This document shows, piece after piece, positions 1,047 to 43,790 of a DNA stretch of 46,523 nucleotides. Location of the stretch: IMG/VR virus record IMGVR_UViG_3300048914_000134, positions 1 to 46,523 of that record; one strand, written 5' to 3'. The position numbers and the translations under genes were made by a program. Position 1 is the stretch's first letter. Each line of letters starts with the position of its first letter. The notes under the pieces are model-generated. The model was not told the origin of the DNA and did not search any database. It worked only from the letters and a program-made list of their open reading frames with translations. This DNA comes from a virus.

Positions 1047-1070
1047 CCACATTACTCGGCGGTAATGTGG
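1047..1070. repeat. Dispersed palindrome, copy 1
   Basis: Perfect CCACATTAC/GTAATGTGG arms around spacer TCGGCG. It lies between a leftward terminator (1096-1126) and the leftward operon starting at 909, which suits a promoter-operator rather than a terminator. It is followed by CCTATAACT, one of the recurrent AT-rich flanks. Confidence 0.85.
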
Positions 1071-1095
1071 CCCTATAACTCTCCGGGCAACAAAA

Positions 1096-1126
1096 AGCCC
1101 CAAGGACTTCTAACCCTTGGGGCTTC
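1096..1126 (-). terminator. Intrinsic terminator for the leftward operon
   Basis: AAGCCCCAAGG and CCTTGGGGCTT form a perfect 11-bp stem around a 9-base loop. Read leftward it is followed by TTTTTGTTG, a classic U-tract, while on the + strand no T-run follows. It lies about 55 bases after the gene ending at 1181 and closes the operon running from 3785. Confidence 0.85.
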
Positions 1127-1180
1127 CGGTAGCTGCAGAGGCTCAATTCTCAGCTACTGCGCGGTTCCCGCGCCCGGCCG

Positions 1181-1798
1181 TTAGGCCACTTCGGTGGCTG
1201 CGCCATCTTGGTTTTCGACTTCCGCAGGTGCGCCGTCCAGACCTGCCAGCAGCGCGTCGGTATCGACTGCCGGGCCTTTCGCACGGGCGGCTTTTTCGGC
1301 TTCCAGACGGTCGATGATCGGTTTCAGCTTGGCGTTGCCACGCAGTGCGGTCTTCTCGGCATGGGACTTGCCGGCCAGGAACGACTTGATTTCGTCTTTC
1401 GACTTGCCCGACAGTTCCATCAGCGCCTTCATCAGCACACTGGCGCCGGACAGGCCGCCAGCTTCGCGCTTAATGTTCCACTCGCCTTTTTCCAGGCGGT
1501 CCAGCAGTTCATCGATAGCGATGATCGCGTCTTCGACGTCCTTGACGCCGGCGATCTCGTCGCCCAGCTTTTGCTCGGCGCCGTGGGCAGCGAAGCGCAG
1601 GATCAGGGCTTGCGGAATGTTCAGGTAGCGGGTTTCACCGTTCACGAAGTCCAGACGGGTAACGACAGTGCCGGCTGCGGCGTCGATGGTCGAGTGCTTC
1701 AGCAGTTTGGCTTTGCCGGTGAATTCCACGATGCGGCCGTCGTCCATGGTGACGGTGTTGATTACGGGGCCAGCTTTGGTGGTGGTTGCTTCGGTCAT
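1181..1798 (-). CDS. Hypothetical early protein, DALLDGL family, paralogue A
   Basis: This 205-residue protein is clearly related to the one at 5189-5854. Both have a beta-rich N-terminal third containing an NGE motif, a helical middle, the shared segment KSKDEI, a block ending in I-x-x-(L/I)-x-AE, and then V-D-T-D-A-L-L-(A/D)-G-L. The C-terminus beyond that motif is acidic and Ala-rich. The ATG at 1798 has GGAG at an eight-base spacing; a longer frame exists but lacks a good ribosome site. It is the last gene before a strong terminator. Function is unknown. A nucleic-acid or polymerase-associated role would fit a duplicated early protein, but nothing in the sequence proves it. Confidence 0.75.
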   Translation of the reverse strand: MTEATTTKAGPVINTVTMDDGRIVEFTGKAKLLKHSTIDAAAGTVVTRLDFVNGETRYLNIPQALILRFAAHGAEQKLGDEIAGVKDVEDAIIAIDELLDRLEKGEWNIKREAGGLSGASVLMKALMELSGKSKDEIKSFLAGKSHAEKTALRGNAKLKPIIDRLEAEKAARAKGPAVDTDALLAGLDGAPAEVENQDGAATEVA

Positions 1799-1926
1799 GG
1801 GAATAGCTCCATAGGTTAGAGGGGGTTTGGAAATCGGGCATCGGGGACTAGAATAGCCCGCCGATGTGATGAATATAGCGGATTGCAGAGGGCTTGGCAA
1901 ATGGTTTTTGTGGAACTAGGCGGAAG

Positions 1927-2136
1927 TCATTTGCGATACAATTCAACTGCTATGGCAAAAGCTGTGATGGGCCATAGCAGGATCATGCCGATGATCAGGG
2001 CAAACATCACGGGTTCAGAGAAGTCGTGAGCTTCCGCGAGGTCTTTTATGGAATGGCCACTGCGGAATAGGCCGAAGGTTGTGGCAGCGGCGATAGCGAT
2101 TCCGCCCCAAAAGTAGAATAGGGAAAAGAGAGACAT
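1927..2136 (-). CDS. Small two-TM membrane protein
   Basis: The product is 69 residues with hydrophobic segments at about 3-24 (FSLFYFWGGIAIAAATTFGLF) and 43-63 (VMFALIIGMILLWPITAFAI), joined by a short polar loop with GHSIKDLAEAHDF. This is a hairpin membrane protein. A good AAGGGG ribosome site precedes the ATG at 2136. It lies inside the early leftward operon, far from the lysis cassette, so a holin role is unlikely; an effect on the host membrane or on superinfection is possible but unproven. Confidence 0.7.
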   Translation of the reverse strand: MSLFSLFYFWGGIAIAAATTFGLFRSGHSIKDLAEAHDFSEPVMFALIIGMILLWPITAFAIAVELYRK

Positions 2137-2153
2137 GGCAAGGCCCCTTGAAG

Positions 2154-2501
2154 TTAGTAATGCAACGGCAGTTGATGGAATTGCTGATTCCCGATCAGCT
2201 CAACGCTCAGCGAGAACTGCCCCTCACTCAGCAACAGTGGGAGCTTCCATTCCGGGAAGCCTTCCGGTACGGTGTATGCCGACAGGGCACGTTCCAGTGC
2301 TGGCAGGTCAATGGCGTTTGCTTCGGGCACTGTGCCGAGGTTATAGAGCCAGGACTGGATCGTGTTAGCGATCACGTTGTTGGCAGTAAAGGCGTGGAGG
2401 ATGACGTGCAGGGGCTGCGGCGAGGGGTCAGCAGCCGAGGCAGCTACGGCTGCAGCAGCGGTTTGAGCGGTGTGGAGGAGCTTTTGCGGGGTGCGGGTCA
2501 T
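2154..2501 (-). CDS. Hypothetical protein
   Basis: The product is 115 residues. The ATG at 2501 is chosen because AAAGGG lies seven bases upstream; the frame extends to a TTG at 2531 but without support. The N-terminal 40 residues are Ala-rich and low in complexity; the rest has a mixed helical pattern with hydrophobic periodicity (ANNVIANTIQSWL and IDLPALERALSAY). No recognisable domain. It is spaced 17 bases before the two-TM gene in the same operon. Confidence 0.65.
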   Translation of the reverse strand: MTRTPQKLLHTAQTAAAAVAASAADPSPQPLHVILHAFTANNVIANTIQSWLYNLGTVPEANAIDLPALERALSAYTVPEGFPEWKLPLLLSEGQFSLSVELIGNQQFHQLPLHY

Positions 2502-2527
2502 GGCGTTAGCCCTTTCATTTGAAGTTG

Positions 2528-2776: not shown

Positions 2777-3138
2777 TCAGCGCGAAGCATATTATGTAGA
2801 TCAGACTGCAGCCATATCCAGCCGGATTCGAATCCGCTGTGAGGGACTTGAAAATATCTCAGCAAGTTCAAATTTTCTGCTAGAGCGTGTTCTATATCTG
2901 CTCCATTACTGTCTTCCCACCCTCGGAGCATCACCACAGCATCCGCATCCGCGATCTGCTTCACACTCAACCGCATATAGTACTGCCACGGGTTCGGATG
3001 CCCTTTCGGTGGCGGCGGATTCTCCGCAGGATTCAGCACCGTATGCCCTGCCGCACGGAGAGCAGCTGCAGCTGCGTGGAAGGCGGGATAGTTAGAGTCC
3101 GGGAGGCCGGACATTGGACCTGCGATGTAGATGATCAT
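2752..3138 (-). CDS. DUF4406 / nucleoside 2-deoxyribosyltransferase-like protein
   Basis: The product is 128 residues and opens with MIIYIAGPMSGLPDSNYPAF, the hallmark of DUF4406, a Rossmann-like relative of nucleoside 2-deoxyribosyltransferases. ALRAAGHTVLNPAE, then a DADAVVMLRGWEDSNGA segment and an E-H-A-L-A-E helix complete the expected fold. Family members are thought to act on nucleosides or nucleotide sugars, but most phage copies have no tested activity. Its ATG overlaps the preceding stop (ATGA). About 25 residues beyond the core (after NLLRYFQ) have no obvious counterpart. Role in nucleotide salvage is inference. Confidence 0.8.
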   Translation of the reverse strand: MIIYIAGPMSGLPDSNYPAFHAAAAALRAAGHTVLNPAENPPPPKGHPNPWQYYMRLSVKQIADADAVVMLRGWEDSNGADIEHALAENLNLLRYFQVPHSGFESGWIWLQSDLHNMLRAECPKPWLR

Positions 3139-3785
3139 GGCTTGGCCCTCACTGGCGTGGCATCGGCTAATGGCTGCGCCTGTGCTGGCGATGGGGTATT
3201 AAGGCTTTCAAGGAAGGCATTGGCTTCATCGAGGGAATGAATGCCCCACTTCTTCGCTTCTTCGCGGGCTTCCTTATGCGCAGCGTCGAAATTGTGGTCA
3301 TTCCATACAAATGCGAGCCAGAGCAGGCGGTACGCCATTGCCTTGACGCCTTCCGACACCTCCGCATCCTTGCTTGCTTGGGAGGCGAGAGCGGCGCGGA
3401 GTTCAGCGATTTCGGCATCCCGCGCTCGAATTTCTGGAACTGCGGTGCTTGCAAAAAGCCTCATGCGTTGACGCCACGTTTTGATGTTGGTCATATCACT
3501 CAGCTCCTCTTGCGCATGCTGCTGTGTGGCGGATGCGGGCTCCCCGTAGCTTTCGGCCACGAAAGCCAAAGCCGCCAGCACCGCATCGCGGGCCAAGTCG
3601 GCTTCATACGAAGACTGGGCAAAGGTAACAATACGGACATTGCCATCGGTCAGAATAGCTGAACCAAAATCCCTTTCAGGTCCTAGGACAGTCTTCCCGA
3701 ATGTAGCGGTGGCGGCAAGTGCTTTGGCTTTCGCAAGTGAAAGTTCCCACTCGGAAGGAGTTGGATCGGGGATTGCGGTAGACAT
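3135..3785 (-). CDS. Hypothetical protein, first gene of an early operon
   Basis: The 216-residue product has a good GGAGG site before the ATG at 3785. A central helix (EIRARDAEIAELRAALASQ) looks like a short coiled coil and the C-terminus is Ala/Pro-rich. AYRLLWLAFVWNDHNFD around residues 155-170 is aromatic and conserved-looking. No family is recognised; phage proteins of this layout are often annotated only as hypothetical. It starts 38 bases from palindrome copy 2, which probably controls the operon 3785 to 1181. Confidence 0.65.
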   Translation of the reverse strand: MSTAIPDPTPSEWELSLAKAKALAATATFGKTVLGPERDFGSAILTDGNVRIVTFAQSSYEADLARDAVLAALAFVAESYGEPASATQQHAQEELSDMTNIKTWRQRMRLFASTAVPEIRARDAEIAELRAALASQASKDAEVSEGVKAMAYRLLWLAFVWNDHNFDAAHKEAREEAKKWGIHSLDEANAFLESLNTPSPAQAQPLADATPVRAKP

Positions 3786-3822
3786 TGAGCCTCCAGAAGG
3801 TTAATCGTTAATAGTTATAGCG

Positions 3823-3846
3823 CCATATTACCACGCCGTAATGTGG
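3823..3846. repeat. Dispersed palindrome, copy 2
   Basis: Arms CCATATTAC and GTAATGTGG, one mismatch, spacer CACGCC. Read leftward it is followed by GCGCTATAACTATT, a TATAAC box that could serve as a -10 for the operon starting at 3785. It also forms the left border of gene-free island A. Confidence 0.85.
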
Positions 3847-4000
3847 CCCTCAAACCGGCCACGCTCACCCCCACACTACCCCCTCACCCGCCAGCAGTCA
3901 CTCTCTCCCACCCACAACTTCGAGGGCGCGGCCACACCTCACCACGCCGCAGCCCTCGCGTGTGCGCGCACAGGCGCTCGGGCGCCCCACCCGCATACGC

Positions 4001-4018
4001 GCTGTTTTTAAAAACAGC
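4001..4018. repeat. Perfect 18-bp palindrome
   Basis: GCTGTTTTT followed directly by AAAAACAGC. Read leftward, GGGGGCTG then TTTTT resembles the end of a weak terminator; as DNA it could be a protein site. Confidence 0.6.
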
Positions 4019-4026
4019 CCCCTCCG

Positions 4027-4106
4027 GCTAGCGATTTCGGGATTGAACCGCTCTGACTCGCCACTAAGACTAACAGCAATTGAGCGACGGTCTGCGGCGC
4101 GTTAGC
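4027..4106 (-). ncRNA. Possible structured RNA
   Basis: Read leftward, 4106-4100 (GCTAACG) pairs with 4033-4027 (CGCTAGC) with one mismatch, and inside it 4086-4082 (CGCTC) pairs perfectly with 4053-4049 (GAGCG). The segment also contains GGTTCAATCCC, like a tRNA T-loop, but no full cloverleaf forms. A T5 run within the 4001-4018 palindrome follows. This could be a small RNA or a tRNA remnant; support is structural only. Confidence 0.25.
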
Positions 4107-4221
4107 CCCTCCCCGGGCCGGATTTCCCCTCACGGCGCGGCAAAAGCTATGGCGCGGAGAGCGAACTGCTAACGGGCGCGAGGATGGGCCAGGGGTGCGA
4201 ATGAAGAGGGTTTCGGCGGCA

Positions 4222-4330
4222 CGAAATAGAGGCCCGTGGCGGCGTTTGGGGCATTGGCTGGTGGGGTAGTAGCCGCCGGGGAGGGATCGCGGCGTGGCGG
4301 TGCCATTCCGGCCCGTGGTGGGGCATTACC
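4222..4330. repeat. Shared non-coding block, copy in island A
   Basis: It starts with CGAAATAGAGGCCCG, identical to 33554-33568 in island D. Similarity then continues imperfectly: a GG-C/T-TGGT-rich stretch, a GGGAGGG segment and a G-CGTGGCGG segment occur in the same order in both. The reading frame is not kept between the copies, so the DNA or RNA is what is conserved. Confidence 0.5.
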
Positions 4331-4349
4331 GATGTGGAGGCACGCCCCC

Positions 4350-4380
4350 AAACAACGAAACCCCCGGACAGGGGGGTTAT
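4350..4380 (-). terminator. Intrinsic terminator
   Basis: AACCCCC (4359-4365) pairs with GGGGGTT (4372-4378) around a 6-base loop. Read leftward the stem is followed by a T-rich TTTCGTTGTTT. It lies 19 bases after the stop of the gene at 4397-4669 and ends the small operon from 5103. Confidence 0.7.
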
Positions 4381-4381
4381 C

Positions 4382-4406
4382 GGGCCACGTTACAGGTCAG
4401 CGATGG
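4382..4406. repeat. Decayed palindrome copy
   Basis: GGCCACGTTAC matches a left arm of the palindrome family; after AGGTCA the right half GCGATGGCG matches GTAATGTGG at only about five of nine positions and lies inside the end of the coding region at 4397. It borders island A on the right, as true copies border the other islands. Confidence 0.4.
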
Positions 4407-4669
4407 CGGAGAGACTCCACTAACGCTTGCTCAACCATCGCCATATCGTAGCTGATGGGATCACGCATTGCCCTATCCACGATGTCTAGGGCGAGGAGGC
4501 GGACTGGCACACGCGAGAACAACATTACGATGTCTAGTTCCGATACATCCTCGGAGAGTTTGGATTGCCAATCCTTGCGCAGGAACCCCTGCAATTTGGG
4601 ATCGTGCGCTGCGGATTCTAGAGCGTAGTTGTAAGCGCGCTCCATTGCGCGGGTGATGGTGGTGGTCAT
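4397..4669 (-). CDS. Hypothetical small protein
   Basis: The 90-residue product has a strong AAGGAG site before the ATG at 4669. It is mostly helical, with KLSEDVSELDIVMLFSRVPVRLLALDIVDRAM in the middle and a final helix MAMVEQALVESLRHR. No recognised domain. It is the last gene of a short leftward operon and is followed by an intrinsic terminator. Confidence 0.7.
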   Translation of the reverse strand: MTTTITRAMERAYNYALESAAHDPKLQGFLRKDWQSKLSEDVSELDIVMLFSRVPVRLLALDIVDRAMRDPISYDMAMVEQALVESLRHR

Positions 4670-4923: not shown

Positions 4924-5103
4924 CTAGACTCCCAAGAGGATGTAACGGGTCGCTTCGAGGGACCACCCGCGATTGCGGAGGTATGCGGCGGCGGGGCGGG
5001 TTCCGAGGGTGCGCTGGATGTTGCGGGCACGCTCGATTGGGGTGCGGCCCTGTGTGAGCAGGGCATTGCGATGCGGGGCGGGGGATGAGGTGAGGTGTGA
5101 CAT
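4924..5103 (-). CDS. Small hypothetical phage protein (59 aa)
   Basis: This short gene has GGAGG nine bases before its ATG at 5103. The sequence centre reads RTPIERARNIQRTLGTR and then AAAYLRNRGWSLEATRYILL, a compact helical pattern I associate with short phage and prophage proteins of unknown function. The gene is the first after palindrome copy 3 and is followed within five bases by the next start, so it leads the operon 5103 to 4397. Confidence 0.75.
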   Translation of the reverse strand: MSHLTSSPAPHRNALLTQGRTPIERARNIQRTLGTRPAAAYLRNRGWSLEATRYILLGV

Positions 5104-5134
5104 GATGCAGTGCCTCCAATGAGGGGTTACGAGG

Positions 5135-5158
5135 CCACATTACCGGCTAGTAATGTGG
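5135..5158. repeat. Dispersed palindrome, copy 3
   Basis: Perfect arms around spacer CGGCTA (the same spacer as copy 16). It lies in the 85-base gap between the gene ending at 5189 and the gene starting at 5103, both leftward. Confidence 0.85.
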
Positions 5159-5188
5159 CGCTATTACTATTGCAATCGCGGCTGCGCG

Positions 5189-5854
5189 TTAGACGTTGCG
5201 ACCTGCACCGCGACGGTCTTTGCCGGTGCGAGCTTCACGCTCGGCGTCGGTTTCGTCGGAGTCGCTATCGCTATCGCCGTCCTCGCCCTCTTCCTCGTCC
5301 GTGTCACCATTGTGACCTTCCATCAGCCCATCGAGCAACGCATCGGTATCGACCTTCGACGTGTCGGTGTTTTCGGCTTGGATCAACCGGATCATTTCCA
5401 CCACTCGAGGGTTCTTGCGGAGCGCGGCCACTTCTTCTTTCGACAGCTTGTCGAGGTAGGCCGTGATTTCGTCTTTGCTCTTCGTCGTGATGCGCATCAT
5501 GGCGCGGACGAGCAGACCACCCTTCGCGTTACCGCTCTCGCCATTGCCCCGGATCTTGTTCCATGCCGGGGTTTCACCGTTCGCCCCGGTGATGCGGTCG
5601 AAGATTTCGCGCACGGCGTTGAACTTGTCCACGATGGTGGCGGTGCGGCCGGTTTCTGGATCGCGGGCAATAGCCGCACCATCGACTAGCTTTTGTTTCA
5701 GGCCATGCATCGCGGCGGCGTGGTAGATTTCCTGCGAGAGCGTGGCGCTGTCGAGGGTGAGGGATTCGCCGTTGCTGAATGCGAGCGTGAGGCGAGTGCC
5801 GTCGATTGCGGCTGCTACGGCGGTCGAGGTTTTCTTTGGGGTTGCGGTTGCCAT
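5189..5854 (-). CDS. Hypothetical early protein, DALLDGL family, paralogue B
   Basis: The 221-residue product is related to the one at 1181-1798: shared NGE motif in the beta-rich N-terminus, a helical core with KSKDEI, LRKNPRVVEMIRLIQAE, and VDTDALLDGLM. The C-terminal tail is extremely acidic (runs of E, D and S) and then turns basic (RTGKDRRGAGRNV). Such tails are typical of nucleic-acid mimicry or of proteins that bind basic partners, but that is inference. The ATG at 5854 has AGGAG at good spacing; the frame continues upstream without support. The gene lies second in the leftmost early operon. Confidence 0.75.
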   Translation of the reverse strand: MATATPKKTSTAVAAAIDGTRLTLAFSNGESLTLDSATLSQEIYHAAAMHGLKQKLVDGAAIARDPETGRTATIVDKFNAVREIFDRITGANGETPAWNKIRGNGESGNAKGGLLVRAMMRITTKSKDEITAYLDKLSKEEVAALRKNPRVVEMIRLIQAENTDTSKVDTDALLDGLMEGHNGDTDEEEGEDGDSDSDSDETDAEREARTGKDRRGAGRNV

Positions 5855-5949
5855 GGTTGCTGCTCCTATAACTAGTGGTAGGATGCACAGGCCGCGTTGC
5901 GGCGAGTGTGCGAGGCCGTATGCGACGGCTGGCGCTTGAGCGGATCGCC

Positions 5950-5987
5950 CGGTTAGCCTCATCGCAACGATGGCGACTGGCTAACCG
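5950..5987. repeat. Inverted repeat upstream of the paralogue B gene
   Basis: CGGTTAGCC (5950-5958) and GGCTAACCG (5979-5987) are perfect 9-bp arms around a 20-base loop. It sits in the leader between the 39-residue gene and the gene starting at 5854, so it could be an attenuator or an mRNA-stability element. There is no U-tract. Confidence 0.45.
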
Positions 5988-6120: not shown

Positions 6121-6291
6121 ATTCGTTGCTCCTCGTCGGTTGCGGCGCTGTGTTGTGAGCCGATGTAGTAACTATACGTTATGGGGCCACGGAATGCAAG
6201 CCCTCTTCGCAAATTATTTGTGTGGTATTTTCGCCACTGGATTTAGTAGTCGCAAAAGCTATAAGAGTAACGCGCTCCTCCGATTACCGGG
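6121..6291. other. Leader and AT-rich control region
   Basis: No gene is seen. It holds the promoter at 6171-6199, an AT-rich stretch around 6210-6245, and GCAAAAGCTATAAGAG at 6253-6268, which recurs inverted as CTCTTATAGCTTTTTCGC at 6866-6883. The two copies face each other across island B. Confidence 0.5.
6171..6199 (-). promoter_or_regulatory. Probable sigma70-type early promoter, leftward
   Basis: Read leftward, TTGCAT (6199-6194), a 17-base spacer and TATAGT (6176-6171) form a near-consensus host promoter about 50 bases before the 39-residue gene. The upstream DNA (6205-6245) is AT-rich, unlike its surroundings, as an UP element would be. It would start the leftward early arm. Confidence 0.55.
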
Positions 6292-6315
6292 CCACATTAC
6301 TAGCCCGTAATGTGC
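6292..6315. repeat. Dispersed palindrome, copy 4
   Basis: Arms CCACATTAC and GTAATGTGC (one end mismatch), spacer TAGCCC, which is the reverse complement of the spacer of copy 7. It borders island B on the left and is followed by CGCCATAACT. Confidence 0.85.
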
Positions 6316-6816
6316 CGCCATAACTCCCCGCCGCGCCCCGCCGACCACATGCACCGCGACGAGGGCAGAGGGCGTGAGCGGGTGTGGTGAGAGGGGAGCG
6401 GGGCATGGGGGTGCATTGCCGCCCTCTATCAGCAGTAACGCGCACGCCCACACCCGCGCACACGTAGCAATCGCCGTGCCTGCCCGCCCCTCCCAGCACG
6501 CTACCCTCCCGCCTCCGAGCCGCTCGCCCGTTACTGTATCGTGTGCGACCCTCTCGCAGCCGTCTCTCTCGCGTGGCATGGTGTCGTGTGCGGGCCTGTC
6601 GAGCCCGATGCGGGCGGCTGCGATGTGAGCGGGGGCGATTGCTTCCCGTGCGATGGGAGGGGGTAGCGGGCTGCGAGGGGGGTGGGGGAGGGGGAAACTG
6701 GAGTGTGGGATATTTGTGTAATGCACCGTCCAACATTTTTTTTAATTTTTTCCAGACCCTTGCCTCTCGGCAACACACTCACTCGTCCGCTGCGCCCTCG
6801 TCCTCCAATTACCGCG
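6316..6816. other. Non-coding island B between two palindromes
   Basis: These 501 bases separate the divergent arms. The frames through it are low in complexity and without ribosome sites. It alternates strongly G-rich and C-rich blocks; for example CTACCCTCCC near 6500 can pair with GGGAGGGGGTAG near 6655. It ends with a T-tract (about 6735-6750, T9 AA T6). This could be an origin, a bent-DNA/UP element or a packaging region; nothing decides between them. Confidence 0.65.
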
Positions 6817-6840
6817 CCACATTACAGCGGAGTAATATGG
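6817..6840. repeat. Dispersed palindrome, copy 5
   Basis: Arms CCACATTAC and GTAATATGG (one mismatch), spacer AGCGGA. It borders island B on the right and lies about 160 bases before the first late gene, so it is well placed to control the late arm. Confidence 0.85.
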
Positions 6841-6997
6841 CCCCGAAATTCTGAGCCGCGAATCTCTTATAGCTTTTTCGCTACTGAACTGGCCGCAAGC
6901 GACAGGCGACCACGAGCCCGGCTGTCGAGTTGCTGTTATTTGCAGTCACCTCGACTCTCCAGTCATCGCCTAACGCCTCCCCCATCGGAGAAAAGCT

Positions 6998-7357: not shown

Positions 7358-7365
7358 GAGCCGGA

Positions 7366-12343: not shown

Positions 12344-12354
12344 CCATAACGGGG

Positions 12355-12378
12355 CCACATTACGGCTGAGTAATGTGA
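12355..12378. repeat. Dispersed palindrome, copy 6
   Basis: Arms CCACATTAC and GTAATGTGA, spacer GGCTGA (identical to copy 12). It occupies the 68-base gap between the GroES-like gene and the scaffold gene, opening the capsid module, and is followed by CTCCATAAT. Confidence 0.85.
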
Positions 12379-12411
12379 CTCCATAATCCCCCTAGTTAAA
12401 GGAGCTTTACC

Positions 12412-15518: not shown

Positions 15519-15545
15519 GCGGCGCCCGTTCGGTTGATTATGGCG

Positions 15546-15569
15546 GCACATTACGGGCTAGTAATGTGC
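15546..15569. repeat. Dispersed palindrome, copy 7
   Basis: Arms GCACATTAC and GTAATGTGC, still perfectly symmetric: the outer base has changed on both sides together. Spacer GGGCTA. It lies between the coat gene and the next gene. Its outer flanks TTATGGC and GCTAAAA are only partly symmetric. Confidence 0.85.
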
Positions 15570-15603
15570 CGCTAAAACCCTTCAATCATTAGGAACTGCA
15601 ATC

Positions 15604-19782: not shown

Positions 19783-20739
19783 ATGAGCCTATTGAGCAGT
19801 ATTGGCAGCGTTGCTGGTGGCCTGATCGGAGGCCCAGCCGGTTCGGCGATCGGCGGTTTGCTGGGTTCTGCCCTTGGCGGAGATGGCAAAGGCTCGACCG
19901 GTAGCGGAGCTTCGCCTGCAGCGGTAGCCGATCCCTTTGCTTCGCAACGCCCGCAGTACCAAACCCAGCTGAACGACTTCATGAAGACGGCTTCGGGGAG
20001 CAGTGCGGCGCTGCAACAGCAACAACAAATCGCACAGTACAGCGGCCTTGATCCGAATGCTTCGAACACGATGCGCGGCATCATGAACCTTGGCGGTACG
20101 GACGCCGGGAATCAGCTCGCCGCTATGACCGCGCCGGGAGCGAAGTTCGACTCCAGCGACCCGAGCTACCAATTCCGCTTCGACCAGGGCCAGCAAGCCG
20201 TGCAACGAAGCGGTGCGGCAAAAGGCCTGCAGGGCAGTGGGAATATCCTGATGGCTCTGCAGGACTACGGGCAAGGCGCGGCTTCACAAGAGTACCAAGC
20301 CCAATTCAACCGTCTGTCGTCGCTGGCGCAGTATCAGCAGGGCTACCAAGCCCAGCAATACAACCAAGCTCTGCAGTTCAACAACCAGAACCTCAGCGCT
20401 CTGGGACAGCAGTTCAACCAGCAAGGTCAAATCTACGGTCAGCAGGAAAACAGCTACCAGAACGAGTACGCTCGGCTGGCACAGCTCGCTGGTGCGAACA
20501 TCGGTTCTCCGGGCCAAGCGGGTCAGCTGCAACAGCAACAGCAAGCGGGAGCGGCTGCATTTGCGCAATCCGTCACCCCGGCGATTTCGGATCAGATCAA
20601 GAGCTGGTTCGGACCGTCGAGCGGTAGTGGCAGCAGCGGCAGCGGCTCCAACCCGTTCATCCCTTCGTCGATTACTCCGGTTGACAGCAGCTACAACAGC
20701 GGCTTCAGCTTCACGCCGGAAGTCTTCACGAGTAGCTGA
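19783..20739 (+). CDS. DNA transfer (ejection) protein, gp7-like
   Basis: The 318-residue product has an N-terminal glycine-zipper hydrophobic segment (about residues 3-30, GSVAGGLIGGPAGSAIGGLL) followed by Gln/Ser/Tyr-rich low-complexity sequence to the end. P22-type ejection proteins that form the trans-envelope channel have the same composition. The start at 19783 has AAAGGAAC; a longer frame lacks support. It precedes two larger probable ejection proteins. Confidence 0.75.
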   Translation: MSLLSSIGSVAGGLIGGPAGSAIGGLLGSALGGDGKGSTGSGASPAAVADPFASQRPQYQTQLNDFMKTASGSSAALQQQQQIAQYSGLDPNASNTMRGIMNLGGTDAGNQLAAMTAPGAKFDSSDPSYQFRFDQGQQAVQRSGAAKGLQGSGNILMALQDYGQGAASQEYQAQFNRLSSLAQYQQGYQAQQYNQALQFNNQNLSALGQQFNQQGQIYGQQENSYQNEYARLAQLAGANIGSPGQAGQLQQQQQAGAAAFAQSVTPAISDQIKSWFGPSSGSGSSGSGSNPFIPSSITPVDSSYNSGFSFTPEVFTSS

Positions 20740-20747
20740 TTTCGGGG

Positions 20748-20771
20748 CCACATTACGGCTGTGTAATGTGG
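20748..20771. repeat. Dispersed palindrome, copy 8
   Basis: Perfect arms around GGCTGT, the reverse complement of the spacer of copy 14. It fills the 63-base gap between two ejection-protein genes and is followed by GCTCTAAAAC. Confidence 0.85.
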
Positions 20772-20802
20772 CTCTAAAACCCTTACCTTTTCGGACTCTT
20801 TC

Positions 20803-22215: not shown

Positions 22216-24141
22216 ATGCCTGATATGACTGCTGCCTACGAGGCATTGCGCAAAGCGGATGCTGCTGGTGATACGACTAGCGCAAAGAAGATTGCGGATT
22301 ACATCCGCAGCCAACCCGGTGCGGGGGAAAGCCCAAGCGAAGGAGTGCAAAGCGTTGCGGTGCACCCGGCGGAGATGGCTGCCGAGGCCGGGAAGGATGC
22401 CGGGAATTGGTTTTCGAGCAATGAGCCAGAAGACATGAGCCTGGGCAAGCTCGGTGGGGAGGTTGCTGGCGGGGCGGCAGGTGGCGCCGTGGCCGGTGCC
22501 GTGCTTCCGGGGACGCTGAAAGCAGCTGGCAAAGTCGTGCCGGGGGCTGTTGGGAAGCTCTTCAGCGGCCTCGGCGAGGCTGCGAGTGCTCTGCCGCTGA
22601 AGGAACGGGTGACGCGGGGTGCGGGTGGCGGGGCTGCAGCCGGTGCGGTGGATGCTACGGGCCGGGCTTTCGGCGCACCAAAAGCAGCAACCTTCGCCGG
22701 GGAAATGCTGGCCGGCGGGCTCGGAGAAACCGCGGCGAGCTTTCTGCAGAAAGAGGCATCGCAACTCGGCCGCTTTGTTGCGAACATCAGCTATGGGAAT
22801 GTGGCTGGGGCCTCAAGGGCCCTCGGCGGGATGCTCAGTCCGAACCGCCCGCTGAACGAATCGGTGGCGCGAAAGCTCCAGCAGAAGCTTTTCGGAAACC
22901 CGACTGATTCGTATGTCGATGGTTTGGTGAGCAGTGATAACCGGATTGCGGTGCAGGAAGCGCTGCGGAAGGCTGATCCGAGCCTCAACAGTGGCGGTCC
23001 GAGGGCTGCGGATGCCCCGAGGGCACCTTGGGAGACCTCGACAGGGGAGATGGAGGGGCTCGGCCCGCTCTCACGCGGGACTGATGTTGCGGCCGCAGGC
23101 GGCGCGTCGCGCAATCCGCTGACCCCACCGGTTGCGATTGGTGGGCCAAAGGCACTGCCAGGACCGCAAAGCGGTGGCGCGGGCTCCGACAGAGCTTCCG
23201 CAAGCGGAAGTGCCGGTGCGGCGGAGCGCTTCGCTGCAGGCAAAGCCGGTGCGAAAGCTAAAGCCGAGGCGACTGCTGAAGCAGCGCGCAAGGCTGAAGC
23301 CGATGCCGCGGCCAATGCGATGCGGCCAGCATCAGCCATCTACCGTGAGCGGATGCAAGCCGGGGTGACAGAAGCCGTGAAGCAAGGGAAGACTTTTTCC
23401 TCGACGCCGGAGTTTGCGACACTGAGCGAGAAGCTTGGGGCGATGGAGCAGCTGGGGAGTATCACGAAAGCGGACAGGGAGCGGCTGCTCAAGACGCTGA
23501 GCGCGGACAGACTGAAGAATCCGCAAGTTCAAGAGGGGTATGCTAAAGCGGTGGACGATCAAATTCGGAACTGGGGCAAGCCAGCTGAAAGCGGCGGGCA
23601 GACCGGCGCGGCTGCAGTAAGCGCGAAGACGGCTGAGGAGGTGCGCGGGGCACTGCGTGAAGCATACAATGGCTACACTGCGAGGCTGGGCATGGGGGAT
23701 ATTGAGAAAAAGTACCGCAATGCCTATTCGCAGGAAATGATCGCGCAAGCCAAAGACGAGCTGCCGCACTTCCTTTATGGGTTTGGCTCGACGCAAGAGT
23801 TCCAAAAGATGGCTCGGAATCTTGCGCGCGATCCTGAAGGACTGCCGTTCATCCAGAAAGCGATGGCGCAACACCTCGCACAGCAAGAGCCGAAGGCTAT
23901 CACGAAGGAGTTTGAGCGGTTGCAGAAGGTGCTTGTGGATAGCAAATTGGCGACGCCGACGGAGCTGCGACAGCTACGGGTGAATGCGGAGACGGTGCAG
24001 CGAGCGAGCGAGCGCGGCGAGGGCTCGGTGGTGAAGCTGGGGCAGCGGTTCCAGCAGTTGCTGTTGATGGCGATGGCGCGGAATGCGGCTGCAGCGGGCG
24101 GGCAGAAGGTGGCGGGGGCACAGGGAGAGGGGCGGGAGTAG
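22216..24141 (+). CDS. Large internal virion / ejection protein
   Basis: The 641-residue product has a helical N-terminus with a YEALRKADAAGDTTSAKKIADYI repeat-like pattern, a Gly/Ala-rich hydrophobic region around residues 77-155 (GGEVAGGAAGGAVAGAVLPG, then GAGGGAAAGAVDATGRAFG) that could insert in membranes, an Ala-rich low-complexity middle, and a helical C-terminal third. It resembles the largest ejection proteins of P22-like phages. No lytic transglycosylase motif is visible. It ends just before palindrome copies 9 and 10. Confidence 0.7.
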   Translation: MPDMTAAYEALRKADAAGDTTSAKKIADYIRSQPGAGESPSEGVQSVAVHPAEMAAEAGKDAGNWFSSNEPEDMSLGKLGGEVAGGAAGGAVAGAVLPGTLKAAGKVVPGAVGKLFSGLGEAASALPLKERVTRGAGGGAAAGAVDATGRAFGAPKAATFAGEMLAGGLGETAASFLQKEASQLGRFVANISYGNVAGASRALGGMLSPNRPLNESVARKLQQKLFGNPTDSYVDGLVSSDNRIAVQEALRKADPSLNSGGPRAADAPRAPWETSTGEMEGLGPLSRGTDVAAAGGASRNPLTPPVAIGGPKALPGPQSGGAGSDRASASGSAGAAERFAAGKAGAKAKAEATAEAARKAEADAAANAMRPASAIYRERMQAGVTEAVKQGKTFSSTPEFATLSEKLGAMEQLGSITKADRERLLKTLSADRLKNPQVQEGYAKAVDDQIRNWGKPAESGGQTGAAAVSAKTAEEVRGALREAYNGYTARLGMGDIEKKYRNAYSQEMIAQAKDELPHFLYGFGSTQEFQKMARNLARDPEGLPFIQKAMAQHLAQQEPKAITKEFERLQKVLVDSKLATPTELRQLRVNAETVQRASERGEGSVVKLGQRFQQLLLMAMARNAAAAGGQKVAGAQGEGRE

Positions 24142-24149
24142 TTATGGAG

Positions 24150-24173
24150 TCACGTTACTAGAAAGTAATGTGG
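24150..24173. repeat. Dispersed palindrome, copy 9
   Basis: Most diverged arms: TCACGTTAC and GTAATGTGG, spacer TAGAAA. It is only nine bases after the ejection-protein stop and 26 bases before copy 10, making the only close pair. Confidence 0.75.
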
Positions 24174-24199
24174 CCCACTAACTCGCCGTCATTACCATG

Positions 24200-24223
24200 C
24201 CACATTACGGCGCGGTAATGTGA
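24200..24223. repeat. Dispersed palindrome, copy 10
   Basis: Arms CCACATTAC and GTAATGTGA, spacer GGCGCG. It borders island C on the left and is followed by CTCCATAAT. Confidence 0.85.
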
Positions 24224-24732
24224 CTCCATAATGGACCGAGCGGCGGAGCTTTTGCGTAGCGAAAGGCAAGACAGCTCGGCTCCGGGGCGCTCCTCTACCC
24301 CGCCGCTACCCTGCCGACGATTCGCGGCGAGCTAGCCGGCGGTCGCCCTAGCGCAAGCGGGGGATTGGGCTGAAGGAAGAAGAAGAGGAGCGCGGCGGGT
24401 GGAGGCATGAGCGGGAGCGGGCCTCCGATCTAGCTTTCGCTCCGCAAAAGTTCACGCGCAACTTATAAGAAGAAGCGCGACGCGGCGACAGCTTAAGAAG
24501 AGCAGCGACCCCCTTATAAGAGGCCGCCGCCGAGCCCGGAGCTAGCCGCGCCCACCCCCTTAAGAAGGTGTGCAGGAGGGGGGGAGGCAACCACAATCCT
24601 ATTGTAATGATTTTCGACCTCCGTGTCAAGAGCTAACCTGATGCGCCCCGGTTGACCTCCGCAACAGCCGCCGCGACACTTCTTCTTAAGGGGGTGCGGG
24701 CGTGGCTGAGCGGCCCTCGTCCCATTTTCGGG
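24224..24732. other. Non-coding island C between two palindromes
   Basis: These 509 bases have no credible gene. They contain at least five copies of a CTTAWAAG/CTTAAG motif with purine-rich or C-rich flanks (24462, 24492, 24509, 24553 and, inverted, 24679). Two of them form an inverted pair with 15 identical bases. Other GC-rich inverted segments occur at 24240-24460. It could hold an origin, a packaging signal or late regulatory sites. Confidence 0.65.
24553..24696. repeat. Inverted repeat bounding the end of island C
   Basis: CACCCCCTTAAGAAG at 24553-24567 recurs inverted at 24682-24696 as CTTCTTAAGGGGGTG: 15 of 15 bases, about 114 bases apart. Each copy is itself centred on CTTAAG. Confidence 0.65.
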
Positions 24733-24756
24733 CCACATTACACCGGCGTAATGTGG
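24733..24756. repeat. Dispersed palindrome, copy 11
   Basis: Perfect arms around ACCGGC; the symmetry extends outward to GGGG/CCCC-like flanks and is followed by CATAACT. It borders island C on the right and is 28 bases upstream of the ATP-grasp gene. Confidence 0.85.
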
Positions 24757-24784
24757 CCCCATAACTACTACGGAGTACTTCAGT

Positions 24785-28582: not shown

Positions 28583-28604
28583 AGTCCTAGCTATAATTTC
28601 TGCG

Positions 28605-28628
28605 CCACATTACGGCTGAGTAATGTGA
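28605..28628. repeat. Dispersed palindrome, copy 12
   Basis: Arms CCACATTAC and GTAATGTGA around GGCTGA, the same spacer as copy 6. It lies between two tail genes; TATAAT at 28592 just upstream could be a -10 box, though no -35 is visible. Confidence 0.85.
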
Positions 28629-28659
28629 CCCCAAAACTCTTCTCTTTCAGGAACCTGCC

Positions 28660-33029: not shown

Positions 33030-33030
33030 A

Positions 33031-33441: not shown

Positions 33442-33470
33442 GGGAAGCGAAGGGAAGGGAAGTTTCGGGG

Positions 33471-33494
33471 CCATATTACTAGACGGTAATGTGG
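33471..33494. repeat. Dispersed palindrome, copy 13
   Basis: Arms CCATATTAC and GTAATGTGG (one mismatch), spacer TAGACG. The symmetry extends outward to TTCGGGG/CCCCGAA, the longest extension seen. It borders island D on the left, after the last late gene. Confidence 0.85.
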
Positions 33495-33715
33495 CCCCGA
33501 ATTACTTGGAGGGTGGAAGAGGGTACTGGGACGGATTGGGGGTTATTGGAGCCCGAAATAGAGGCCCGCCACGCGTTCGGAGGGGGTGGCTGGTAGGACA
33601 GTCTAGGGAGGGGTGTTTGCGAGGCGTGGCGGGGGCAATCCGTCGAAATTTGCCGCATGGCGGGCGGGGGAAATGGGCCGGATTTTCACCGGCCCGGTGC
33701 GGGAGAGTTATCGCG
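33495..33715. other. Non-coding island D between two palindromes
   Basis: These 221 bases separate the convergent arms. They contain the block shared with island A (33554 onward) and a GC-rich inverted segment near 33675-33702 (GGGCCGG...CCGGCCC). No ribosome-site-supported gene is seen, and there is no clear bidirectional terminator with T-tracts. Confidence 0.65.
33554..33650. repeat. Shared non-coding block, copy in island D
   Basis: CGAAATAGAGGCCCG (33554-33568) is identical to 4222-4236; the following G-rich stretch aligns loosely over about 85 more bases. See island A for the other copy. Confidence 0.5.
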
Positions 33716-33739
33716 CCACATTACACAGCCGTAATGTGA
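33716..33739. repeat. Dispersed palindrome, copy 14
   Basis: Arms CCACATTAC and GTAATGTGA, spacer ACAGCC (reverse complement of copy 8's). It lies nine bases past the stop of the leftward HNH gene and borders island D on the right. Confidence 0.85.
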
Positions 33740-33748
33740 CTCCATAAC

Positions 33749-36777: not shown

Positions 36778-38160
36778 TTACCCCATCAGACCTTTGAGTT
36801 CATCCGCCAGAGCTTGGCCACTCGTTACGTCCTGCGGGCGGTTGAGTTCCTGCAGACGCTTGTACCCCATCGCGTAATACTCGGGGTTGAGTTCCAGGCC
36901 GATGCCCTTGCACTTTTGCTGATCCGCCGCTGGGAAGATCGTGCCACTACCGCTGAAGCAGTCCAGCACCGTGTCGCCGGGCTTGACGCTGCGCTGCAAG
37001 AGTTGCACGAACAGCTCAACAGGCTTCTGAGCCCCGTGCGTGAGGTTGTCGTCGGCGTAGCTGGTCAGAACGTCCGGGTAGATGGCGGTGGTTTTCTTGT
37101 GCCCTTTGATTGCGTACAGCAGAGTTTCGTACTGGCGGCGTGGGCCTTCGAATGGCAGAGGCACACGACCGCTTCCAGGTTTTGTGCAAATGAAAGGCGT
37201 TCTGAACACATACCAGCCCGCGTCCTGCATCATGCGCTTCAGCTCGTGGAAGTTGTCGATGTCGCAAAAGACATACGCATGAGCTTCGCGCTTCGCCACC
37301 CGGAACGACAACGGGCACCACGCTGTCATCAGTTCTTTCCAATGGGCATAGTCGTCTTTGTAATGGTGTTCATTGTTGGCCAGACGACCGCCGCCACCGT
37401 CACCGAAGCTATCAGCACCCATACCGTAAGGAGGATCAGTAAGAATAACATCGACGCTCTCTTCAGGCGCCGTTGCCATCCACTGGAGACAGTTGATATG
37501 ATGCGCTTCGTGGATGCTGCTGGAGTACGTGGCGCCGACGGTGGCAGCGAGGCGAATGTTCTGCTGTTGCGTCTCTTGCTTTTTGAGGATTTTGAATGCT
37601 TCGTTGACATCTTTGGCCTTTGCGACTTCAGGGTTGTGGGTGTGCTGCGCGACGATGATCTGGCGGCGGATGATTTCTTGATTGGAGCCCTCGCTCGATC
37701 CACGAACCTCCACAGCCGTGTCGGCGACAGCATGGACGCGGCCTTCGGCTTGGGCTTGCTGCGACCGGATGCGGTGGAGTTTGGCGATTGCAGCGGCCTC
37801 GTCCTGCCAATTGAGGGCTTTGCGGCGGATGTTTTCTTCGAGCTCCGCTTCTTCCGCTTGCAGCGGGGTGAGGTCGCCGAGGCTGACGAACGGGAGGTAG
37901 CCTTCAGGAATGGCTTGGTTGTTATAGCGGAGGGTGCCACCGAGCGCCCACAAGTTTTCGATGGCTTTGATACGGGTTTCCCCCGCGACGAGGATCTTGC
38001 GCACAGGCTCACCCGGTGCATCACGCATCACCGGAGCGTGCAGCAAGCCCTTGCTGAGAATGCCTTCGGACATTTCCTGAATGAAGGCCGGATCGAATTC
38101 CTTGCGCTGCCTGTCGGATTCGATGATGATGTCAGAACGTTTAATGAGTTGGGGTTGCAC
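36778..38160 (-). CDS. ParB-like domain fused to DNA methyltransferase
   Basis: The 460-residue product starts with GTG behind AAAGG. Residues 1-150 form a ParB/Spo0J nuclease-like domain (DIIIESDRQRKEFDP, then KILVAGETRIKAIENL) and the rest is an amino-methyltransferase of the N6-adenine/N4-cytosine type, with DPPYGMG (motif IV, about 242) and FSGSGTIFPAA (motif I, about 402), the circularly permuted beta-class order. It would methylate phage DNA at a short site. No restriction enzyme lies nearby, so protection from host restriction is likely. Confidence 0.9.
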   Translation of the reverse strand: MQPQLIKRSDIIIESDRQRKEFDPAFIQEMSEGILSKGLLHAPVMRDAPGEPVRKILVAGETRIKAIENLWALGGTLRYNNQAIPEGYLPFVSLGDLTPLQAEEAELEENIRRKALNWQDEAAAIAKLHRIRSQQAQAEGRVHAVADTAVEVRGSSEGSNQEIIRRQIIVAQHTHNPEVAKAKDVNEAFKILKKQETQQQNIRLAATVGATYSSSIHEAHHINCLQWMATAPEESVDVILTDPPYGMGADSFGDGGGGRLANNEHHYKDDYAHWKELMTAWCPLSFRVAKREAHAYVFCDIDNFHELKRMMQDAGWYVFRTPFICTKPGSGRVPLPFEGPRRQYETLLYAIKGHKKTTAIYPDVLTSYADDNLTHGAQKPVELFVQLLQRSVKPGDTVLDCFSGSGTIFPAADQQKCKGIGLELNPEYYAMGYKRLQELNRPQDVTSGQALADELKGLMG

Positions 38161-39914: not shown

Positions 39915-39953
39915 TGCTGAAGTGTGCAGTTTTGAGGCGTCCGGGTTTTGGTG

Positions 39954-39977
39954 CCACATTACGGCGGAGTAATGTGG
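39954..39977. repeat. Dispersed palindrome, copy 15
   Basis: Perfect arms around GGCGGA. It lies five bases after the Sak4-like gene's stop and 175 bases before the SSB-like gene's start; both are leftward. Confidence 0.85.
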
Positions 39978-39982
39978 CTCCG

Positions 39983-40831
39983 TTACAGCACCCCACCACG
40001 GCTCTGCCACTTTTTCACAATCGGCCCGAAGTCTGCTGGCAGCTTACTGCTGATCGCAAGGTTCCGGGTCTTGACATCCGCCATTGCACTGCCAGTATCC
40101 CAGTTCCAGTTCGCACCTTCCCGCACGGTCAGGATCACGTCCGAAAACATCGGAGGGAGCTTTGGCCCGAGCGCCTTGCCCAAGCTCGAAAGCATGATCT
40201 TCGTGCCACCGAGAACTGCATCGGTTTCGCGCTCGACATGGCTGATCAGGACGAAGTGACACTTCAGCTGATTCGTCAGCATGAAGAGGAGGGTTTCGAC
40301 TTGCTTCTGGGCGATGCCCCAATCGCTTTGGTTGGAGACTGGCTTGCCGCCGACAACAAGGCCCATGGCAGCACGACACAGCCCGGCCATGCCGTCCATG
40401 ACAAGAGCCCGACTCGGCCCCCAGGTGTCGGCGCAACCGAAGGACTGGCCAGTGCGATCGTCTTTGAAGTCGTTGAGGGCTTCGAGGATCTTCTCGAACT
40501 GATTGTACTTCGAGCGGTTCGGGTCTTGGAGCTTGGCCAGAGTGTCGAGCGCCATAGTGTTGACCTTTTTGGCGTTGGACAAGAGCTCGCTGAAGCTCGC
40601 TTTTTGAGATTCGACTTGGTGCCAGTGGAGGTTCTCCGGGATGGGCTTACCCTTGTCGGTGAAGTAGCCGAGTAGGGATTCGAGACCCGGCTCCAGGCCG
40701 AGGTAGAAGACCTCGACGCCGGCTTCGACGAGGGAGCCGATGCTGTGGGTTTTGCCTGTGCCTGCTGGGCCCATGAGCAGGACGTTGACACCATTGAGAG
40801 CGGAAACTGCGGGAGTAGTAGTTGCGGTCAT
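39983..40831 (-). CDS. Sak4-like RecA-fold ATPase (recombinase)
   Basis: The 282-residue product is a minimal RecA core: Walker A GPAGTGKTHS (about 21-30), then LVMDGMAGLCRAA for Walker B, and CHFVLISHVERETD. Its length and lack of extra domains match Sak4-type phage ATPases, which help anneal single strands with an SSB. It stands between a Cas4/RecB-like nuclease gene cluster and a possible SSB gene, which supports a recombination role. A DNA-replication loader is the main alternative. Confidence 0.75.
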   Translation of the reverse strand: MTATTTPAVSALNGVNVLLMGPAGTGKTHSIGSLVEAGVEVFYLGLEPGLESLLGYFTDKGKPIPENLHWHQVESQKASFSELLSNAKKVNTMALDTLAKLQDPNRSKYNQFEKILEALNDFKDDRTGQSFGCADTWGPSRALVMDGMAGLCRAAMGLVVGGKPVSNQSDWGIAQKQVETLLFMLTNQLKCHFVLISHVERETDAVLGGTKIMLSSLGKALGPKLPPMFSDVILTVREGANWNWDTGSAMADVKTRNLAISSKLPADFGPIVKKWQSRGGVL

Positions 40832-42502: not shown

Positions 42503-42768
42503 TCGATGGCCTCGATTTTCTGAGCTTCCATCAGGGCGTACTCTGCCACAGCATTGCCCATGGCATTCGTAACCTGTGCCGCATTCGCACTTGCCGTGGA
42601 CTGGACTTCGTCCGAGATTACCTTGAACACACGGGACAGCGCTGCATTGCTCAGACGGATTTCCTGTTTTCCGCTGCTGCCTTTCAAAGTTACCATGCCG
42701 ACCAGCATGTTTGGATAGTCGCTGTCATACGACGGGCGACGCTGAACGTCCAGGGATTCTACTTGCAT
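42499..42768 (-). CDS. Hypothetical small protein
   Basis: The 89-residue product has AAGAGG before its ATG. The first half is beta-like (PNMLVGMVTLKGSSGKQEIR) and the second half a long helix. It overlaps the nuclease start by four bases and may be its partner. No family is recognised. Confidence 0.65.
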   Translation of the reverse strand: MQVESLDVQRRPSYDSDYPNMLVGMVTLKGSSGKQEIRLSNAALSRVFKVISDEVQSTASANAAQVTNAMGNAVAEYALMEAQKIEAIE

Positions 42769-42809
42769 TTTGAGCCTCTTATAGCTAATGGTTATGGGAG
42801 GTGCTGCCG

Positions 42810-43025
42810 TTACATCAGCCCGTCAAGCAGCGCATCGCTGTCAATCGGAGCTGCTTTGGCTTTCGCCGTTGCTGCTTTGGTTTTCGCGGTCGCACTCACA
42901 GTCGAAGCGTTCACGCGCTCCTTGCGGATCGCGGCGATGGCCTCTCGCATTTCTTCTTGAGTGATAGTGCCATCGCGCGCTTTCTGGCGCCAGAGTTGCA
43001 GGTTGTTGTTGATCACGTCGGACAT
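42810..43025 (-). CDS. Small early protein ending in DALLDGLM
   Basis: The 71-residue product has GGAGG before its ATG. The N-terminal half is helical (NNNLQLWRQKARDGTITQEE) and the middle is a Lys/Ala/Thr-rich linker. It ends with DSDALLDGLM, nearly the same peptide as in the two related proteins at 1181 and 5189. Sharing only this motif suggests a common binding peptide. Function is unknown. Confidence 0.7.
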   Translation of the reverse strand: MSDVINNNLQLWRQKARDGTITQEEMREAIAAIRKERVNASTVSATAKTKAATAKAKAAPIDSDALLDGLM

Positions 43026-43045
43026 GGAGGGAACCTCCGAAAGGG

Positions 43046-43330
43046 TTAAGAGGGATCGACAGAAAAGACGTCGACATTAGTTGCCGCAGTATTGAAGAAG
43101 CGCTCCTTCGCGTTGGGAAAGCAAACTTCGTAATCGGCGACTGGTTCTTCAAGCTTGTAGAGAGAACCGGAGTGGGTGCGAACGACTTTTGCAACGGGGT
43201 CGACGGCCGTGATTCGACTGGTAGTGACAAAAGTTCCGTCAGCGAACTTGGGATTCCCGTAAACTTCCCCGGAAACGCGGCCTGGAGTGTCTATGCCAAA
43301 ACTCCAGTTTCTCAATTGCATGATTGTCAT
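43046..43330 (-). CDS. Hypothetical small beta-rich protein
   Basis: The 94-residue product may start at 43330 or 43321; both have weak ribosome sites. It has a beta pattern (VSGEVYGNPKFADGTFVTTS, then KVVRTHSGSLYKLEE). Short proteins of this type are widespread in phages without known function. Confidence 0.65.
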   Translation of the reverse strand: MTIMQLRNWSFGIDTPGRVSGEVYGNPKFADGTFVTTSRITAVDPVAKVVRTHSGSLYKLEEPVADYEVCFPNAKERFFNTAATNVDVFSVDPS

Positions 43331-43374
43331 GATGGGCTTTCTGCCCCCGGAGGGGCGGTGGAGTAGACGAAGGC

Positions 43375-43725
43375 TTAATCGCTCACGATCTGGCCGTCAA
43401 CCAGCTTCGGCGCCGATTTCGGGCCTTTCAGGAATTCCAGCGCTTCTTTACGCGCCGTGTCGCCGCTGCGATCGACAACCTGCATCAGCCATTTGTACTC
43501 GAACTTCGCGTGAGGGTCGACGCGCTCAGGACCGTTCACGCTCACAACGCGAACCACGGCCAGGCCTTTCGGGGATTCGACCACGACTTCGTCGAGGGGC
43601 TTCAGGTCCATGCCTTCCGGGACTTTGTAGGTGTAGTCCCGGTCAGGCGTGGCGAGGAAGGCGCATTGCGCCGTGCGGGTGAAGGTGAGGACTTCGGCGG
43701 CTTGTTGCGCGGAGGTGATGGGCAT
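43375..43725 (-). CDS. Hypothetical beta-rich protein
   Basis: The 116-residue product has AAAGGAG before its ATG. It is beta-rich (DEVVVESPKGLAVVRVVSVN) in the centre and helical at the end. It is the first gene downstream of palindrome copy 16, 42 bases away, and so may open the recombination operon. No family is recognised. Confidence 0.7.
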   Translation of the reverse strand: MPITSAQQAAEVLTFTRTAQCAFLATPDRDYTYKVPEGMDLKPLDEVVVESPKGLAVVRVVSVNGPERVDPHAKFEYKWLMQVVDRSGDTARKEALEFLKGPKSAPKLVDGQIVSD

Positions 43726-43766
43726 GGAAAGCTCCTTTGAAGGGTTGAGGTTGGTTGGTTAATGGG

Positions 43767-43790
43767 CCACATTACCGGCTAGTAATGTGT
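43767..43790. repeat. Dispersed palindrome, copy 16
   Basis: Arms CCACATTAC and GTAATGTGT, spacer CGGCTA (as in copy 3). It lies in the 110-base gap between the helicase stop and the gene starting at 43725, both leftward. Confidence 0.85.

Follow-up and report, generated by a model that had tools for sequence, protein, structure and literature searches.

The stretch of DNA analyzed here (the window) is the whole virus record IMGVR_UViG_3300048914_000134, 46,523 bases long, which represents a complete 46.4-kb phage genome. It contains 16 copies of a long palindromic element, hereafter called the dyad. We consider it probable that these dyads serve as dispersed operators for a ParB/KorB-like regulator that the phage encodes and whose specificity diverges between related phages, the likeliest regulator being a fusion of a ParB-type protein with a DNA methyltransferase (ParB-MT). 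The two ends of the window (1-127 and 46397-46523) are identical over 127 bp, indicating a complete genome with a terminal repeat or a circular record; the dyad count is therefore genome-wide.

A first-pass annotation of the window had described the element as a 24-bp palindrome with two nine-base arms around a six-base centre. All 16 positions given for it are correct: allowing up to 3 mismatches, the 9-6-9 pattern matches 16 times, compared with 0.01 matches expected from dinucleotide shuffles of the window, and all 16 copies lie outside the conserved (core) genes of the window, in agreement with the earlier statement that the palindrome avoids credible genes. The unit itself is larger. Alignment of the 32 window half-sites, with positions counted outward from the dyad centre, revealed conservation of G1, T2, A3 and A4 (32/32 each), T5 (31), G6 (29), T7 and G8 (32/32 each) and G9 (23) in the inner part, and of C10 (32/32), C12 (29), W15 (32/32), A16 (29), A17 (31) and Y18 (32/32) in the outer part. 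Because conservation extends over 18 bp per half, the unit is a 42-bp dyad in which two outward-facing 18-bp half-sites, GTAATGTGGCNCYRWAAY, flank six free central bases (N6). A lone half-site, GTAACGTGGCCCGATAAC, is found on the minus strand in addition to the 16 dyads. The TTATGG and CCATAAC flanks recorded previously are real and correspond to the outer CNCYRWAAY block; their interpretation as -10-like boxes is disfavoured, WAAY being a poor -10, with C as the last base in more than half of the half-sites and G as the second base in 12 of 32. The contrast drawn between conserved arms and a variable centre applies to the window phage, whereas the six central bases are nearly fixed in some relatives (TATATA in G020, TAATTA in G026).

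The two halves of a dyad vary independently of each other. At the seven variable positions, left and right halves agree in 54 of 112 cases, against 54.1 with shuffled partners, and neither the central nor the outer bases display an excess of left-right agreement within copies. That the copy at 15546 has its outer base altered in both arms is thus no sign of pairing, contrary to what its mention in the first-pass annotation might suggest. Since the halves of one copy do not covary, the dyad is read as DNA and not as an RNA hairpin. RNA hairpins acting as terminators, processing sites or stabilisers are accordingly very improbable: a 9-bp stem could form, many dyads come after a stop codon and a T-run follows one copy in a few relatives (G014, G015, G018), but bases 10-18 are kept as single half-sites rather than as pairs, an Rfam search gave no match, and the test for intrinsic terminators found arms without covariation and no T-run at the window copies, the latter as already stated in the first-pass annotation.

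In the window, dyads follow immediately on stop codons and precede start codons, and the two at 33462 and 33707 flank the convergent junction. At both the scaffold and the post-capsid border the late genes start ∼24 nt past the half-site, a space that fits a Shine-Dalgarno sequence and not a promoter. This spacing has a second possible meaning, namely that each half-site is itself a phage promoter with a start near its outer end, which would leave room for the Shine-Dalgarno sequence only; the layout of an AT-rich block, a variable block and WAAY recalls the promoters of single-subunit RNA polymerases. We regard bidirectional promoters of this kind as distinctly unlikely. No RNA polymerase gene was recognised among the open reading frames of the complete genome in profile searches that covered part of the genes, both halves are retained at the convergent junction and even where an operon runs in a single direction, and dyads are present inside polA in several relatives. 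The bidirectional promoter-operators proposed earlier are disfavoured likewise by the poor -10 quality of WAAY, by the Shine-Dalgarno sequence of G004, which starts right after this block, and by the two copies at the convergent junction. In a test for sigma70 hexamers (-35 and -10) in or beside each site, the outer block proved a poor -10, the scaffold and gp15604 borders offered no space on the downstream side, and the best matches at other places were mostly at shuffle level; in G027, a strong sigma70 promoter (12/12) is situated just downstream of one early dyad.

The exact palindrome pattern was found in no other contig in IMG/VR, because each phage spells its dyad differently. A looser pattern returned 18 IMG/VR contigs, among which L028/G004 alone proved to be a true relative, and relatives were collected by capsid protein and by DNA polymerase. 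In L035, whose capsid protein is 85% identical, the post-capsid site reads GCAGATTAC-N6-GTAATCTGC; in L036, GGATTAC-N6-GTAATCC occupies the scaffold border and the post-capsid border alike. An unconstrained arm search of relatives already displayed the N6 spacing. An automatic search of 16 genomes of 38-48 kb, the window included, in which the TA step was fixed and N6 was imposed by construction, yielded 208 dyads (11-16 per genome; 11-15 in the fifteen relatives), and shuffled versions of the 16 genomes contained none at the same score. With a free TA step, low-complexity or out-of-register repeats were picked up instead in G010, G023, G026 and G028.

Dyad specificity differs between phages and is uniform within one phage. 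The inner GTAAT and the outer WAAY are largely kept across relatives, and the middle of the half-site is phage-specific, as seen in the consensus half-sites of G011 (GTAACGTGCGC), G019 (GTAATCCGCGC), G020 (ATAATGCGGGTG), G023 (TTAATTCCTAC) and G025 (TTACTCCCGGC). Only 9 of the 208 dyads fall inside core genes, although core genes span ∼57% of most genomes. The same gene boundaries are used repeatedly: GroES-scaffold in 13 genomes, major capsid protein (MCP)-next gene in 11 and Sak4-SSB in 9. The boundaries in common also include the convergent junction, and the sequences found there differ by phage. In several relatives a dyad lies within the polA reading frame, ∼556 nt from its start (for example L129 7728 and L132 10557), so that the sites are not strictly intergenic across the family.

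These comparisons bear on two further explanations. Recombination boundaries or mobile-element ends, the former also suggested in the first-pass annotation, would be in keeping with sites at gene borders and with some pairs that flank non-coding intervals. We give this explanation next to no credence, since shared recombination sites would require like sequences, whereas phages that would need to exchange DNA differ in sequence at equivalent borders, and the copies hold conserved places across phages. The sites could alternatively belong to a host-encoded protein, and different hosts could explain the different spellings. The chance of this is slender: a scan of 84,980 genomes of bacteria and archaea returned the exact pattern at 10 places, one per record and none with the outer WAAY, and the operator spelling tracks residue 159 of a phage protein, as described below.

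The dyads follow the early replication module and not the head module. MW202489 possesses the early genes for ParB-MT, PolA, Sak4, SSB, Cas4 and Dda and no homologous TerL, portal or MCP; it contains 8 N6 dyads with a half-site near GTAAACCSGGCG, compared with 0 in shuffles. Conversely, the head module is present in MW202796 and OK172329, which lack the early genes, ParB-MT included, and this kind of dyad. As the dyads track early genes and not head genes, their reader is expected in the early module.

Other dyads were encountered in further phages. Scanning the TerL-identified relatives for perfect arms detected no N6 dyads and two other kinds, GTWCCAAWTTGGWAC in G001 and TCCTAAYRTTAGGA in OK172329. 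The G001 dyads (L010-L011; positions 614, 2884, 11707, 15565, 25007 and 32183) stand behind the capsid gene, ahead of the ATP-grasp gene and close to where the late genes end, in like places with unrelated sequence. In OK172329 (L006, an Alcaligenes phage without ParB-MT), at least 12 copies are spread over 25208-48092, several of which overlap Shine-Dalgarno sequences. The Vibrio phage MF497422 (L235), with a distant ParB-MT, carries TCAATCG-N6-CGATTGA dyads at 173, 6568, 23359 and 38800, one of the four at its convergent junction.

The candidate reader is ParB-like at its N terminus and further comprises a helix-turn-helix and an N6/N4 methyltransferase. It has PHROG matches to ParB; its PF02195 match (0.0028) is below the family cut-off. 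A predicted model of residues 1-220 (pLDDT 81) gave Foldseek matches to Noc, KorB and ParB (best E 8e-8), and in the predicted fold the helix spanning residues 158-171, which includes residue 159, is the recognition helix. As modelled, the candidate has a ParB N-domain and a ParB-type helix-turn-helix. GERRLRAI/GETRIKAI and EENIRR-like motifs, which resemble NTP-binding boxes of the GERRxRA and ENxxR type, are conserved in the ParB-MT alignment.

Residue 159 of ParB-MT covaries with base 1 of the half-site. Over 44 loci, serine is paired with G (28/28), glycine with T (10/10) and alanine with A or T (6/6), and residue 159 is the only one among 1359 equally covered columns from five proteins that separates the base-1 classes perfectly. 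On the PolA tree, residue 159 and base 1 each change four times, and the independent pairs agree in 3/3 cases; the closely related L175 and L148 have neither the residue nor the base in common. MW202489 combines S159 with G1, as expected, but this is the common state. In G003, the recognition helix is altered and the TA steps of the dyads are separated by 11 bases rather than 8. With independently conserved half-sites, a family-wide N6 dyad and a covarying recognition-helix residue in the candidate reader, the earlier proposal of binding sites for a phage-coded dimer is well supported.

Several observations weigh against ParB-MT as the reader. The link between residue 159 and base 1 is backed by just three independent switches (sign test p 0.25), too few for significance on their own. 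Among 14 complete genomes, a few head- and tail-protein columns separate base 1 as well or better, because of shared ancestry, and whole-protein distances do not single out ParB-MT; protein-distance and column correlations over complete genomes are too confounded by ancestry. The MW202489 dyads were missed by the strict scan and found only on by-eye reading of gene gaps. Other early-module proteins, including a TerS-like helix-turn-helix protein, also travel with the dyads. Finally, the phage-specific positions 6-14 match no helix-turn-helix column of the ParB protein, so that another domain, for example the methyltransferase, or another protein may read them.

This last point leads to the possibility, which we judge unlikely though worth keeping in mind, that the operators serve a phage dimer with a different early-module reader, either the TerS-like helix-turn-helix protein (6998-7357) or an unrecognised DNA binder. 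In favour of such a reader, the TerS-like protein belongs to the core set of all genomes and is also present in MW202489, and the operator middle finds no counterpart in the ParB-MT helix-turn-helix; but the TerS-like recognition helix shows no correspondence with the operator classes. The RHH-like protein encoded at 45557-45790 was rejected as a reader, since its strand residues do not track the operators and it was not found in MW202489, although dyads are present there. Comparison of the early genes with Pfam and PHROGs identified no obvious repressor. The TerS-like gene forms a tandem with 7354-8010: the two overlapping genes encode TerS-like helix-turn-helix proteins, both core in the family.

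From these comparisons we infer that ParB-MT binds the dyads and has a role in transcription, with any role of its methyltransferase inferred likewise. A ParB-MT dimer would bind the 42-bp dyad as DNA, with one subunit per 18-bp half-site. Bound at the borders of transcription units, it would control phage transcription, by analogy with KorB of plasmid RK2, through occlusion of RNA polymerase or blocked passage, the presumed effect being silencing, a roadblock or activation. Loading from many sites, ParB-MT could handle the genome as a whole, and operator spelling and recognition helix would change together from phage to phage.

KorB, a member of the ParB family, acts from palindromic operators near to and far from promoters and, as a sliding CTP clamp, silences over distance (PMC11790492). 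The phage dyads appear to fit this plan, with about a dozen operators at unit borders, a putative ParB-type reader and a symmetry suiting both directions; palindromic operators are indeed dispersed over the replicon, 11-16 per genome. The likeness extends to KorB being among the best fold matches of the candidate. By contrast, the RK2 operator measures 16 bp and the phage site 42 bp with an N6 centre, the phage candidate has a methyltransferase C-terminal to its ParB part, and a partner resembling KorA was not identified; repression in the manner of KorB would follow by analogy in the phage. Among the window genes searched, profile searches having covered part of them, no ParA-like partner as in a parABS system was recognised.

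Other dispersed phage sites differ more. Cluster O mycobacteriophages such as Corndog, which are not obviously temperate, carry >30 copies of a 17-bp dyad per genome, many of them intergenic, and Corndog has a ParB-domain protein, gp90; however, their repeat is of the 7-3-7 type, about one third of copies are inside genes, and no family-wide sequence change is described (PMC4351075). The stoperators of cluster A, recognized by the L5 repressor, are likewise numerous in short intergenic gaps, with immune specificities that vary among related phages, but they are 13-bp, asymmetric, transcription-oriented sites of a monomeric immunity repressor in temperate phages (PMC9283540, PMC6550527); the window site is a symmetric 42-bp dyad. 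SPBRE of Bacillus phage SPbeta resembles the dyads as a repeated, conserved intergenic element with one phage-encoded reader, MrpR, and differs in its 15-bp motif, its recombinase-fold repressor and its temperate prophage setting (PMC10516654). ESAS of cluster K mycobacteriophages are imperfect inverted repeats before start codons whose consensus varies by subcluster; unlike the dyads, they have a variable spacer, contain SigA-like hexamers and are confined to non-structural genes (PMC3203893, PMC11373665).

Phage fusions of ParB-CTPase and N6/N4 methyltransferase have the identical protein architecture and are described as common, the survey passages on them giving neither a DNA site nor an established function (PMC12704722); genome-wide sites are proposed for one here. 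Dispersed intergenic dyads or repeats without a known reader are found in other phages, including cluster O (PMC4351075) and the T1-like repeats (PMC11447400). In the open-access literature we found no report joining dispersed dyads with ParB-methyltransferase fusions, or of a family of dyads diverging in this way. The present phage family links the two through a pair open to testing: a DNA duplex of 42 bp and a protein of 460 residues, for which a switch in specificity (residue 159 to base 1) is predicted. If correct, it would show how a global regulator of a phage changes specificity together with the dozen operators that it reads. A broader picture is possible, and we offer it tentatively: a widespread uncultivated phage lineage might use a ParB/KorB-like clamp-methyltransferase and about a dozen dyads with immunity-like diverging specificity, and the methyltransferase may mark the nearby genome, coupling epigenetic marking or evasion of host defence to global transcription control.

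Positions of the dyads, the lone half-site and the candidate reader in the window
Feature	Coordinates	Strand	Context
Dyad 1	1038..1079		between P205 stop 1181 and P167 gene
Dyad 2	3814..3855		upstream of minus-strand gene 3135-3785
Lone half-site GTAACGTGGCCCGATAAC	4376..4393	-	3 nt past stop of gene 4397-4669
Dyad 3	5126..5167		between P257 (5189-5962) and small conserved open reading frame 4924-5103
Dyad 4	6283..6324		divergent non-coding region, left side
Dyad 5	6808..6849		upstream of TerS-like gene 6998
Dyad 6	12346..12387		follows GroES-like gene (stop 12343), precedes scaffold-position gene (12412)
Dyad 7	15537..15578		follows major capsid gene (stop 15518), precedes gene 15604
Dyad 8	20739..20780		adjoins stop 20739; upstream of gene 20803
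Dyad 9	24141..24182		adjoins stop of gene 22216-24141
Dyad 10	24191..24232		opens 490-bp non-coding interval
Dyad 11	24724..24765		upstream of ATP-grasp-like gene 24785
Dyad 12	28596..28637		upstream of gene 28660
Dyad 13	33462..33503		convergent junction, late-gene end
Dyad 14	33707..33748		convergent junction; adjoins stop of HNH gene 33749
Dyad 15	39945..39986		covers Sak4-like stop (39983); upstream of SSB-position gene
Dyad 16	43758..43799		between Dda helicase (stop 43836) and gene 43375-43725
Candidate reader ParB-MT (460 aa): ParB-type N domain, helix-turn-helix, N6/N4 DNA methyltransferase	36778..38160	-	
Candidate reader, helix-turn-helix (residues 145-171)	37648..37728	-	
Candidate reader, residue 159 (second residue of recognition helix)	37684-37686	-	

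Between or beside dyads, at 6325-6807, 24233-24723, 33504-33706 and 3856-4375, the window has extended intervals devoid of conserved genes. They are of skewed composition (C-rich, G-rich) and have no Rfam match; non-coding RNAs or insulating spacers are possible. The ATG of the small minus-strand open reading frame 4924-5103, which is inconspicuous in size but conserved in 5 genomes, is 22 nt from a dyad half-site. Three core proteins, encoded at 1181-1798, 5189-5962 and 42810-43025 (minus strand), have a common C-terminal DTDALLxGL-like tail and are apparent paralogues. In L028, the ATP-grasp-like homologue (7513-9864, 783 aa) contains an apparent intein-like insertion (CYDAETEVL...WCGN).

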